The notes beneath the pieces were generated by a model. That model made no database searches. It saw nothing but the letters and a program-made list of their open reading frames with translations, and had not been told where the DNA came from. Both the position numbers and the translations under genes were made by a program. Positions 966 to 40,824 of a stretch of 64,000 bases of DNA are shown in pieces. Every line of letters begins with the position of its first letter. The first letter of the stretch is position 1. This DNA is from Mesorhizobium shangrilense (GTDB lineage: Bacteria; Pseudomonadota; Alphaproteobacteria; Rhizobiales; Rhizobiaceae), in the NCBI RefSeq assembly GCF_040537815.1, contig NZ_JBEWSZ010000002.1, positions 372,001 through 436,000 on the forward strand, in the 5' to 3' direction.

Positions 966-1113
966 GATACGAAGGCTTTCGCCGGTCGCGTAGCTCCCGT
1001 GGCGCATTCCATAGCCGTTTAAATTAGGTGCAGCGCAACATCCGCTTGGAGATTGGCGGCCAGATGTGTCAGGGTTCAGCGAATTCGTTTGAAACGCTGA
1101 ATTCCGGGGCCCC

Positions 1114-4100
1114 ATGGCAATTCTGGCAGCCGTCTATCACCTGACCCACTACAAATACGACCGGCCGGTGGTTCTCGGCCCCCAGGTCATCAGGCTGCAG
1201 CCGGCGCCGCATTCCCGCACCAAGGTGCTCAGCCATTCGCTGAAGGTCGAGCCGGCCAACCACTTCGTCAATTTGCAGCAGGACCCCTACGGCAATTTCC
1301 TCGCCCGTTTCGTCTTTCCCGAGCCGGTGACGGAGCTGAAGATCGAGGTCGATCTCGTCGCCGACATGACGGTCTACAATCCGTTCGATTTCTTCGTCGA
1401 GCCGTCGGCCGAGATTTTTCCGTTCGAATATCCCGAGGACATCCGGGACGATTTGACGATCTACCGGACACCGGAGCCAGCGGGTCCGCTGCTGTCGGCC
1501 TTTCTAAAGACGATCGATCGCCAACCGGCCAACACCGTCAATTTCCTCGTCGATCTCAATGCCCGGCTGCAGCGCGAGATCGCCTATATCGTGCGCATGG
1601 AAACCGGCGTGTTCTCGCCGGAGGAAACGCTGGCTGCCGCCAAGGGGTCCTGCCGGGATACGAGCTGGCTGCTGGTGCAAATCCTGCGCAATCTCGGCAT
1701 CGCCGCGCGCTTCGTTTCCGGCTACCTGATCCAGCTCAAGCCCGACCTCGTGGCACTTGACGGGCCGCCCGGAACCGCAGTCGATTTCACCGATCTGCAT
1801 GCCTGGTGCGAGGTCTATCTGCCGGGCGCCGGCTGGATCGGCTTCGATCCGACCTCCGGCCTGCTCACCGGTGAAAGCCATGTACCGCTGGCGGCGACGC
1901 CGCATTTCCGCAACGCTGCCCCGATTTCCGGCATGGCGAGCTTCGCCAATGTCGAGTTCGGCTTCGAGATGCGGGTCGACCGCATCGCCGAGCATCCGCG
2001 CATCACCAAGCCATTCTCGGATGAGAGCTGGCAGGCGCTCGACGCGCTCGGCAACAAGGTCGATGCCGTGCTCAAGACTGAAGATGTGCGCCTCACCATG
2101 GGTGGCGAGCCGACCTTCGTGTCGATCGACGATTTCGAGTCCGCCGAATGGAACACCGCCGCCGTCGGCCCGACCAAGCGCGAAAAGGCCGATGCGCTGA
2201 TCCGCCGGCTGCGCGAGCGCTTCGCGCCGGGCGGCTTTCTCCACTACGGCCAGGGCAAATGGTATCCGGGCGAAAGCCTGCCGCGCTGGACCTTTTCGCT
2301 CTACTGGCGCGCCGATGGAGAACCGGTGTGGAGCGACCCGTCGCTGATCGCGCGGGAGAAAAGCTCGGCCGAAATCGGCCCGGAGCAGGCCGAAAGCCTG
2401 TTGGCGGCGATCGCCGGCGAACTCGGCATCGAAAAGACCATGGTCAGCGAGGCCTATGAGGATCCGGCCGAGTGGCTGCTCAAGGAAGGCAAGCTGCCCG
2501 ACAATGTCGATCCGTCCAATTCCAAGCTGGAAGACCCGGAAGAGCGCAGCCGCATGGCAAAGGTGTTCGAACGCGGGCTGACCAAGCCGTCAGGCTATGT
2601 GCTGCCGGTGCAGCGCTGGAACAGCCAGGCCTCTGGACCGCGCTGGCGCTCGGAAAAATGGAAGACGCGGCGCGGCCGGCTGTTCCTGGTGCCCGGCGAT
2701 TCGCCGGTCGGCTACCGCTTGCCGCTGGGCACGCTGCCCTATGTGCCGCCGGCGCAATTCCCCTATATCGTTCCGGTTGATCCCTCGCTGCCGCGTGGGC
2801 CGCTGCCGGCGCGCGAAGCAATCTTGCCCACCGCTGCTCCAGCCGAACTGGAAGGCGCCGATGAAATGGCGCGCCGCCAGCAGGCGGTGTCGTTCACGGC
2901 GACGACCGGCCAGCAGGACCGGGTCGAACAGGAGATCACCGAGATCGGCGGCGCGGTGCGTACCGCGCTTTCGGTCGAGCCGCGCGACGGCCGGCTCTGC
3001 GTGTTCATGCCGCCGGTCGAGGCGCTGGAGGATTATCTTGAACTCGTCGCCGCCGCCGAGAACGCGGCGAAGGCGATAGGCCTTCCCGTGCATATCGAGG
3101 GCTACGGACCGCCACACGATCCGCGCCTCAACGTCATCCGCGTGGCGCCCGATCCCGGTGTCATCGAGGTCAACATCCATCCCGCCGCCAACTGGCAGGA
3201 CTGCGTGGCGACGACGACGGCGGTTTACGAGGAGGCGCGGCTGACGCGGCTTGGCGCGGACAAGTTCATGATCGACGGGCGTCACACCGGCACCGGCGGC
3301 GGCAACCATGTCGTTGTCGGCGGCGCGACGCCCAATGACAGCCCGTTCCTGCGCCGGCCCGATCTGTTGAAGAGCCTGGTGCTGCAATGGCAGCGGCGTC
3401 CGTCGTTGTCCTACCTGTTCTCCGGCCTGTTCATCGGCCCGACCAGTCAGGCGCCGCGCTTCGACGAGGCCCGCCACGATTCGCTTTACGAACTCGAAAT
3501 CGCCATGGCGCAGGTGCCGCATCCCGACCAGGGCAATGCGCCGCTGCCGTGGCTCGTCGACCGGCTGTTCCGCAACCTGTTGACCGATGTCACCGGCAAC
3601 ACGCATCGCTCGGAAATATGCATCGACAAGCTGTTCTCGCCGGATGGGCCGACCGGGCGCCTCGGACTGGTCGAGTTCCGCGGCTTCGAGATGCCGCCCA
3701 ATGCGCGTATGAGCCTTGCGCAGCAATTGCTTGTCAGGGCGATCATTGCCCGCGCGTGGACAAACCCGCTCGACGGACGCTTCGTGCGCTGGGGCACATC
3801 GCTGCATGATCGTTTCATGCTGCCGCACTATGTCTGGGCGGACTTTCTCGACGTGCTCGACGACCTCAAGCTCAACGGCTTCGAATTCCGGCCCGAATGG
3901 TTCGACGCCCAGCTCGAATTCCGCTTCCCATTCTGCGGCGAGGTTAGCCAAGCCGGCATCAAGCTGGAACTGCGCCAGGCGCTGGAGCCGTGGCACGTCA
4001 TGGGCGAACAGGGCGCGATCGGCGGCACCGTGCGCTTTGTCGATTCCTCGGTCGAACGGCTGCAGGTGAAGACCGAGGGGCTGAACCCCGAGCGTCATGC

Positions 4101-25620: not shown

Positions 25621-25813
25621 GGGGGCCTCACCAAATCCGTTTTTGCTCCGGCCCTGCACACGGGAATCGTGCATTTTGCAGCGATAAGAACCGGTGCCTT
25701 CATGGAGTCCGACCGATTCTTGGCTTAAATGCGGCGCAGGCGTTGGCACACTTGACGGAGCGTTGGGCGAGGTGCTGGGCGATCCAGGCCGGTATCGGAG
25801 GATTTTCCGGCAT

Positions 25814-25838
25814 GGAACTTTGTCGGGGCGACAGCGTT
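25814..25838 (+). promoter_or_regulatory. EcfG-type (general stress response) promoter
   Basis: GGAAC (25814-25818), 16 bases, then CGTT (25835-25838) is a perfect match to the promoter of the alphaproteobacterial general stress sigma factor EcfG/RpoE2. It points rightward, where no protein gene starts on that strand. A hairpin and a strong terminator follow within 85 bases, so it probably drives a small RNA. Confidence 0.7.
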
Positions 25839-26125
25839 CATCTACCAGATCGCTTCCCTTCGCGATCTTCTCTTATCCCACCTAAAGTGCCCCGCGGGCT
25901 CAAACCGGCGGGGCTTTTTTGTGGTATCTGAGGCGGTGAGGGGTTTTTCGCCCTGATTGGCAAGTCGATCACCGTCGCCGAAGGGCGGCTGTATTCAGCG
26001 GCCGCCACGGCTTCGATCAGCAGATCGAGCGCCTCCCGCGTCTTGCTGCTGGTCTCGTCATCACCGCGAAGTGCGTCGTAGGCGCGCTCAAGATGGACGC
26101 GAGCGGCCGAGAATTCGCTTTTCAT
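25838..26125 (-). CDS. Small conserved rhizobial protein of unknown function
   Basis: The 95-residue protein begins MKSEFSAARVHLERAYDALRG and contains TREALDLLIEAVAAAEY, predicted as two amphipathic helices. The C-terminal third is Pro/Gly/Arg-rich and probably disordered. I recall similar short proteins in rhizobia but no function. The ATG at 26125 is preceded by GGAGG with a five-base gap, a strong ribosome-binding site. The 3' end overlaps, on the opposite strand, the whole candidate small RNA and its terminator, so the two transcripts would be antisense over about 77 bases. Confidence 0.6.
   Translation of the reverse strand: MKSEFSAARVHLERAYDALRGDDETSSKTREALDLLIEAVAAAEYSRPSATVIDLPIRAKNPSPPQIPQKSPAGLSPRGTLGGIREDREGKRSGR
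25844..25920 (+). ncRNA. Candidate stress-induced small RNA
   Basis: Transcription from the EcfG-type promoter would begin around 25844-25847 and end at the intrinsic terminator, giving a transcript of roughly 75 nt. It holds a 5' hairpin GATCGC (25848-25853) / GCGATC (25862-25867) whose eight-base loop TTCCCTTC is C-rich. A single-stranded stretch with TATCCCACC comes next, then the terminator stem. C-rich loops that can pair with ribosome-binding sites are typical of regulatory small RNAs. The Caulobacter GsrN RNA is an EcfG-dependent example. I do not claim homology to it. The RNA lies antisense to the 3' end of the small gene at 25838-26125. Confidence 0.55.
25889..25920 (+). terminator. 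Intrinsic terminator
   Basis: GCCCCGC (25889-25895) pairs with GCGGGGC (25908-25914), followed by six T (25915-25920). It is directional for the plus strand, because the minus strand has no T-run after the stem. It terminates the candidate small RNA. Confidence 0.8.
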
Positions 26126-39633: not shown

Positions 39634-40824
39634 CTATTCGGCGGGAATCTGCGCCGGCCTGGCGGCGAGCCGGCTCAGCATCGCCTCGGCCTCGGCGCCG
39701 CGCTCGGAACGCTCGATGAAGCCGCCGCCAAACACGCGGGCCTCGTTGCCGTCGTCGGAATAGAGCACGCAGGCCTGTCCCGGCGCGATGCCGGACTCGC
39801 CGTCGGCCAATTCGACCGAGGTGACGCCGGCCTTGTGGCGCAGCATCGCCGGACGTGGCGGCCTGGTCGAGCGGACCTTGGCGAACAGTTCCAGCCCTGC
39901 CGGCGGGATGTCGGCCAGCGAACCGTCGCCCAGCCAGTTCATGTTGCGCAGATAGATCTTGTGCGTCTCCAGCGCCTCGCGCGGGCCAACGACGACGCGG
40001 GCCCGTTCTGCGTCGAGATGGACGACGTAGAGCGGCTCGCCCGAGGCGATGCCAATGCCGCGGCGCTGGCCGATCGTATAGCGCAATATGCCTTCATGGC
40101 GGCCGAGCACGCGGCCGTCGATGTGGACGATGTCGCCCGGATTGGCGGCGGTCGGCTTCAGCTTGGCGATGATGTCGGAATATTTGCCCTGCGGCACGAA
40201 GCAGATGTCCTGGCTGTCCTGCTTGGCGGCCACCGTCAGCCCCATCTCCTCGGCAATGGCGCGAACCTGCGGCTTCGGCAGGCCGCCGAGCGGAAAGCGC
40301 AGATAGTCGATCTGAGCCTGCGTGGTGGCGAACAGGAAGTAGCTCTGGTCGCGGTCGGCATCGACCGGCCGGAACAGCGCGCGGTGGGCGCCGTTGGCGC
40401 CGGAGCGGATGTAATGGCCCGTCGCCAGCGCGTCGGCGCCAAGTTCCTTGGCTGTGGCCAGAAGGTCGGCGAACTTGACCGTCTGGTTGCACGAGACGCA
40501 TGGGATCGGCGTTTCGCCGGCAACATAGCTTTCGGCGAACGGATCGATGACCGCCTTGCGGAAACGCTCTTCATAGTCGAGCACATAGTGGGGAATGCCG
40601 AGGGTCTCGGAGACGCGGCGGGCATCATCAATATCCTGCCCGGCGCAGCAGGAGCCAGCCCGGTGTGTCGCCGCGCCATGGTCATAAAGCTGCAGGGTGA
40701 CGCCAACGACGTCATAGCCCTCGCGCTTGAGAAGGCCGGCGACGACCGATGAATCGACGCCGCCCGACATGGCAACGACGATGCGGGTATCTTCAGGGCG
40801 TCCGGGAAGATCGAGACTGTTCAT
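39634..40824 (-). CDS. mnmA: tRNA-specific 2-thiouridylase
   Basis: The 396-residue enzyme makes 2-thiouridine at the wobble position of Lys, Glu and Gln tRNAs with ATP and sulfur relayed from cysteine desulfurase. Motifs visible are the PP-loop SGGVDSS, the catalytic Cys in [12 protein letters not shown] and [11 protein letters not shown] (second Cys), and [12 protein letters not shown] in the central domain. Length is normal. The ATG at 40824 is chosen over a start at 40842 because the family begins a short distance before the PP-loop. Confidence 0.95.

Follow-up and report, generated by a model that had tools for sequence, protein, structure and literature searches.

Is a short promoter-hairpin-terminator unit in the genome of Mesorhizobium shangrilense the gene of a stress-induced regulatory RNA? 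The unit lies at positions 25,814 to 25,920 of a stretch of 64,000 nucleotides (nt) that we analysed as a whole (from here: the window; RefSeq assembly GCF_040537815.1, contig NZ_JBEWSZ010000002.1, positions 372,001 to 436,000 of the forward strand), and it begins with a motif of the type recognised by EcfG, the sigma factor of the general stress response. An initial annotation had proposed an EcfG-driven small RNA (sRNA) comparable in function to GsrN of Caulobacter. Here we report that promoter motif, hairpin and terminator are conserved as a unit in other Mesorhizobium genomes, that sibling copies occur within the same genome, and that the genes of the EcfG switch are encoded there as well. 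With a probability of roughly 0.78, we read the element as a gene for an EcfG-dependent, short, trans-acting regulatory RNA that is one of several sibling copies in a Mesorhizobium family.

Relatives of the element in Mesorhizobium

A covariance model of the RNA alone, with the promoter left out (model R1), was searched in 146 genomes of the genus; the initial annotation had suggested such a search, and it did recover relatives. From a longer list of matches, 28 loci beyond the two starting copies were fetched, and six of them carried a perfect GGAAC-N16-CGTT at the identical distance before the hairpin, which the other 22 lacked. Because the promoter was absent from the model, its presence at the same offset is an independent confirmation. 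These six loci defined type A, which consists of a GGATCG-UCUCCCAUU-CGAUCC hairpin, a linker like CUCCUCCAAUCAA and a terminator. The loop is UCUCCCAUU in most type A members, and most linkers contain CTCCTCCAATCAA or a close variant.

The type A census combined a pattern search of the 146 genomes with a second covariance model (R2), for which the best 33 of about 1,000 to 3,500 candidates per genome were scored, so that absences are not proof. The pattern yielded 26 matches in 25 genomes; 22 were real, and four (L195, L202, L204 and L205) were judged chance matches on inspection. Together with L084, which the pattern had missed, type A was found in 23 of the 146 genomes. A perfect GGAAC-N16/17-CGTT precedes 20 of these 23 loci at an offset of -31/-32, the exceptions being L136/L200 (AGTT), L120/L215 (CGTG) and L201.

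Further types could be distinguished. Nine loci (L128, L129, L131-L133, L140-L142 and L220) make up type B: their stem is longer, the linker is like ACCUCCGAUCAA, and in six of the nine the short loop includes UCCC; seven have GAAAC-N17-CGTT instead of a GGAAC promoter. Type C is represented by the copy at C1:150088 of the M. shangrilense genome, with the loop CUCCCCCUC, and by C1:5999823 of a related genome, G148; the loops contain five and six consecutive C. A fourth type is the window copy, which was found only in its own genome and in G148. The M. shangrilense genome holds three copies, the window copy, the type C copy and a type A copy at C1:4009698, and G148 holds the same three. Fetched loci matched by R1 or R2 that had neither promoter nor UCCC hairpin were not counted; by eye they read as terminators of other genes.

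Two sets of loci deserve separate mention. L251 (C1:106002-106117 of the M. shangrilense genome, G000) and its G148 partner L252 (C1:5951804-5951919) consist of GGAAC-N16-AGTT, a hairpin with UUUCCCUC in its loop, and a terminator, scoring 32.4 and 28.4 bits; judged by this layout, they may represent a fourth sibling sRNA. Three diverged loci, L219 (G109), L135 (G014) and L151 (G048), combine GGAAC, a UCCC-containing hairpin, a C-rich linker (CCCCC) and a terminator and are perhaps family members.

Beyond the genus, a search of 397 genomes of the order with a third model (R3) gave matches at E <= 0.01 in 56 genomes; the best nine candidates per genome were scored, and absences are again not proof. 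Five of the 30 loci fetched read as members, all within the genus (in G000, G012 and G021, a type B copy of G104 and the diverged L219); one of the 30, L240, was incomplete and unreadable. A pattern scan of GTDB gave 18 matches, of which seven were Mesorhizobium members, among them M. norvegicum and the type A carriers M. loti DSM 2626 and M. erdmanii USDA 3471; in the 11 matches from other taxa the rest of the element was missing by eye. Among the loci inspected, the family has so far been seen only in Mesorhizobium.

How closely does the window copy belong to these RNAs? A profile of 22 type A members, from which it had been excluded, found it at E = 4.3e-9, with the next best match at 0.5; when the promoter was removed, the RNA part still found it at 8e-4. 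With a weight matrix of the type A hairpin, the window hairpin was top of 127,952 window positions; this matrix cannot take loops one base shorter, and the true type A members L106, L122 and L123 score below zero. The window copy and type A have in common the spacing from CGTT to the stem and the motifs CC.GATCG, TCCC and CGATC, and pairwise comparison with the 22 members gave 52 to 69 identical of 107-109 aligned positions. In an alignment of 33 members, fitted to the structure and thereby favouring pairing counts, 94.2% of the cells were paired over two helices, with 97.6% in the terminator helix (helix 2). Changes on both sides occurred in four pairs (14 cells), which none of 500 shuffles reached, and two pairs of the 5' hairpin are among those that change on both sides. 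At the seventh position of the 5' stem, pairing fails in 19 of 30 cells; type A lacks this pair. Taken together, these comparisons make a common origin of the window copy and the family likely, not certain.

Architecture and locus of the element

The coordinates are compiled in Table 1. The perfect EcfG-type promoter and an intrinsic terminator within its reach are present as initially annotated, and the length given there, about 75 nt, agrees with the predicted RNA. The hairpin has the eight-base loop described, with a stem of seven instead of six base pairs.

Table 1. Features of the element and of the overlapping reading frame, in window coordinates
Feature	Position	Strand	Details
EcfG-type promoter GGAAC-N16-CGTT	25814-25838	+	GGAAC 25814-25818, CGTT 25835-25838; read from sequence
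Predicted small RNA gene, ~76 nt	25845-25920	+	5' end placed by its distance from CGTT
5' hairpin	25847-25868	+	stem AGATCGC 25847-25853 / GCGATCT 25862-25868, 7 bp
C-rich 8-nt loop TTCCCTTC of 5' hairpin	25854-25861	+	read from sequence
Single-stranded linker TCTCTTATCCCACCTAAAGT, 20 nt, with second C-rich motif	25869-25888	+	from sequence and predicted fold
Intrinsic terminator	25889-25920	+	7-bp GC stem and inner pairs, then T6
Terminator arms GCCCCGC / GCGGGGC	25889-25895 / 25908-25914	+	six T at 25915-25920
95-amino-acid open reading frame	26125-25838	-	C-terminal part antisense across the sRNA gene

The motif is identical to the one described for EcfG1 of Rhizobium etli (PMC3892343). Six bases separate CGTT from the RNA-like segment, which opens with CC before the stem begins, and the linker includes TCCCACCT. 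The predicted fold of 25845-25922 has a free energy of -30.8 kcal/mol (z = -4.33), and none of 200 dinucleotide shuffles was as stable. The T6 run lies 3' of the terminator stem on the + strand only. Peptide coding by the predicted RNA is unlikely, because it contains no ATG, its sole GTG leads into the terminator stem, and the ATG seen in some type A linkers is not conserved. The list of open reading frames (ORFs) has none of at least 60 amino acids (aa) beginning inside the element on the + strand, which bears out the earlier statement that no protein gene starts there; yet the 95-aa ORF, for which no Pfam family matched, crosses the element in antisense. The neighbours of the window copy are an 89-aa ORF and an HlyD gene on one side; on the opposite side lie the 95-aa ORF and a gene of the endonuclease family.

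Absence of promoter and hairpin at the same locus in close relatives had been named as an argument against the sRNA. At this exact locus the element was found in G148, and thus in only two of the 146 genus genomes including its own (BLAST of 25800-25880). In G148, the RNA segment is identical in 76 of 76 bases; the upstream stretch 25640-25813 aligns over 159 bases with 15 mismatches and, in addition, 17 gap columns, and in the small-ORF stretch 25976-26125 8 of 150 bases differ. BLAST of the whole element against 41 genomes (its own and 40 relatives) gave, besides the copy itself, only short matches to the terminator end. When synteny was followed via the small ORF, the 28 further loci (L019-L046) had no GGAAC-N15..18-CGTT, and 28 further loci reached via the endonuclease gene (L049-L076) had neither this motif nor such an element.

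Evidence against the sRNA reading and competing explanations

Several results weigh against reading the element as an EcfG-driven member of this family. The type A copy of the same genome (L136/L200) has AGTT in place of CGTT, and three of the nine type B loci (L128, L140 and L220) no longer have a C run in the loop. A sequence-only profile of hairpin plus linker misses the window copy at E <= 10, so its kinship rests on promoter, structure and terminator jointly. Some unrelated stretches among 416,466 positions of other loci outscore the window hairpin, and the number of further pair types in the 33-member alignment was unexceptional (10 vs 8.5, with 49 of 500 shuffles as high). The promoter motif in the form GGAAC-N15..18-CGTT occurs 234 times on both strands of the 8.35-Mb genome, compared to 649 times for a reversed control pattern; the motif alone is at chance level, is not enriched and is no evidence by itself. 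Finally, in a crude test against 57 ribosome-site regions the window RNA paired no better than its shuffled versions did (21 of 40 shuffles were as good), and the proposed ability to bind ribosome-binding sites thus found no support. In the same test, 6 of 40 shuffles were as good for the type A sibling and 9 of 40 for the type C sibling. As this test was negative, we infer rather than observe the target step.

An explanation that is unlikely, and still the best surviving of three, holds that the window copy is a separate EcfG-driven RNA of independent origin, and that its likeness to type A arose by convergence on promoter, GATCG/CGATC hairpin and terminator. The low count of identical positions and the failure of the hairpin-linker profile would fit such a history, but the equal spacing between CGTT and stem, the shared CC.GATCG, TCCC and CGATC, the top score of the hairpin in the window and the E value reached with the promoter argue for common descent.

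Less probable still is a mainly cis-acting RNA, which would be made and would control, as an antisense transcript to the 3' part of the 95-aa ORF, the messenger RNA (mRNA) of that frame. The ORF does cross the sRNA gene, and its match in G148 has no internal stop. Other family members, in contrast, adjoin other genes: of the 22 type A loci compared, 13 have a D-2-hydroxyacid dehydrogenase-like ORF no more than 1.5 kb away (Pfam PF02826 in the case of the M. shangrilense gene), four of six inspected loci are followed by a CsbD-like ORF (Pfam PF05532 confirmed for L102), and a permease-like ORF precedes five of eight type B loci compared by eye. Moreover, a search with 79 residues of the 95-aa ORF gave matches in 136 of the 146 genomes, and those listed from genomes other than G148 mostly extend only over about residues 1-55 to 1-70, so the overlap with the sRNA gene looks lineage-specific.

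With regard to chance, GGAAC-N16-CGTT is present twice in the window, compared to 0.25 per window in 60 first-order Markov random windows, and a terminator within 100 nt of the motif (by a simple rule) did not occur in any of the 60; the combination of promoter and terminator in the window is unusual. The second perfect motif, at 40371-40395 (+), has no terminator by this rule and is probably due to chance. A chance origin of the element is disfavoured because the promoter-RNA unit is conserved in relatives. That there is no functional RNA at all, only a chance GGAAC/CGTT pair beside the intrinsic terminator of a convergent gene, would agree with the genome-wide frequency of the motif and is very improbable given the recurrence of the unit in other species with fixed geometry, the full identity of the RNA segment in G148 and the one-sided T6 run. 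The initial annotation is partly supported, by the conserved unit of EcfG-type promoter and short terminated RNA-like element and by the presence of PhyR, NepR and EcfG in the genome, but not by the promoter match taken alone.

The stress switch, known RNAs and a proposed function

Under stress, PhyR releases EcfG from NepR. In M. shangrilense, PhyR, NepR and an extracytoplasmic function (ECF) sigma factor are encoded by three adjoining ORFs on contig C5 (locus L185), as judged from their Pfam domains (PhyR_sigma2 and PhyR_sigma-like, NepR, Sigma70_r2/r4). Two features expected of an EcfG regulon are present, the conserved GGAAC-N16/17-CGTT upstream of the RNAs and the genes for PhyR, NepR and EcfG. 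Two divergent GGAAC-N16-CGTT sites lie between phyR and nepR. In the stretch read beside phyR (L185 5480-6100), sites of this form stand in front of an HWE kinase gene and of an ORF resembling a small membrane protein, and no RNA like GsrN was recognised.

EcfG-dependent RNAs are known from related bacteria. ReC64 of R. etli is an EcfG1-dependent non-coding RNA beside the phyR locus, supported by 5' rapid amplification of cDNA ends (PMC3892343), and 23 sRNAs with predicted RpoE2 motifs were listed for Sinorhizobium meliloti (PMC3616915). GsrN of Caulobacter crescentus pairs through a C-rich loop with a G-rich leader, and GsrN-like RNAs were predicted in Rhizobiaceae; outside Caulobacteraceae, a key criterion of Tien et al. 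was that the RNA lies near the phyR-ecfG locus (PMC5869019). Like GsrN and ReC64, the window element combines an EcfG-type promoter with a short RNA that has a C-rich loop near its 5' end. Unlike these, the Mesorhizobium copies are several per genome and lie away from phyR-nepR-ecfG: in G148, a single contig, they are located at 3,263,411, 5,362,461 and 5,999,823 and nepR at 4,684,200, all copies at a distance of at least 0.67 Mb. The loop is also different, UUCCCUUC or UCUCCCAUU instead of six tandem C, while type C copies have five- and six-C runs. The suggested functional counterpart of GsrN fits as a kind, by promoter and C-rich loop, though not by genomic position; any relation to GsrN by descent is putative.

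A second comparison is offered by AbcR1 and AbcR2 (alpha-r15) of S. meliloti, in which two C-rich motifs silence mRNAs at ribosome sites (PMC8844928). They resemble the present RNAs in carrying one C-rich motif in the loop of the 5' hairpin and another in the linker, and in occurring as sibling copies under differing transcription control; they differ in their anti-Shine-Dalgarno motifs, CUCCUCCC and UUCCCCUC, and in their dependence on LsrB (AbcR1) and RpoH1 (AbcR2) (PMC8844928). At E <= 10, the Rfam model ar15 matched none of the three copies searched (window, type A and type C).

The NfeR1/alpha-r14 family is multi-copy. It is likewise an alphaproteobacterial sRNA family with C-rich anti-Shine-Dalgarno motifs in unpaired regions, but its members have a sigma-70 promoter and fold into three hairpins, all of them containing CCUCCUCCC (PMC10746234). 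The Rfam model ar14 (RF02344) reached 23.3 bits on the type C copy (L137), the best alphaproteobacterial near-miss, and 14.4 bits on the type A copy (L136), compared to a gathering threshold of 58.8; it was not among the 16 Rfam matches of the window copy at E <= 10. In the window, a tRNA alone reached the Rfam cut-off, and on five family loci no match did; no catalogued Rfam family fits.

Part of the family may already have been detected. An sRNA list of M. huakuii 7653R contains unannotated RNAs of similar size, MH_s36 (73 nt), MH_s12 (85 nt) and MH_s37 (65 nt), of which MH_s36 was among the RNAs tested by Northern blot (PMC5596092); these RNAs could not be mapped to the family. In the portion of the literature searched we found no published description of an EcfG-driven RNA in Mesorhizobium, and the unannotated RNAs of M. 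huakuii could include the family.

We infer transcription, EcfG dependence, a role of Hfq, mRNA pairing and its outcome as follows. Under stress, EcfG freed from NepR by PhyR would direct RNA polymerase to start at about position 25845, and transcription would end at the terminator, giving an RNA of 75 to 77 nt that carries the 5' hairpin with its C-rich loop, an unpaired C-rich linker and a U tail of the kind that suits Hfq. Through loop and linker it would pair with G-rich sequences in mRNAs, most likely where translation is initiated or in leaders, and this pairing would alter translation or stability of the target, in a working mode like that of AbcR or GsrN.

EcfG-driven RNAs are already known in Caulobacter, Rhizobium and Sinorhizobium; within the literature as covered here, the sRNA family of Mesorhizobium is new. 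Its most interesting feature is the set of sibling copies. The family also offers an example of duplicated sRNAs whose promoter may have switched. A wider interpretation, which we hold tentatively and at less than even odds, is that the siblings form a Qrr-like set acting as the post-transcriptional arm of the general stress response in Mesorhizobium. Genomes of this lineage would have three or more such siblings, L251/L252 possibly being a fourth; each would be driven by an EcfG promoter of its own and differ from the others in its C-rich loop, and type B, with GAAAC-N17-CGTT, may answer to another sigma factor (e.g. a non-canonical EcfG), the copies splitting the stress inputs among them. 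Being defined by sequence, with a fixed promoter, listed loci and siblings, the family makes the RNA arm of the stress response in these nitrogen-fixing root-nodule symbionts directly testable.
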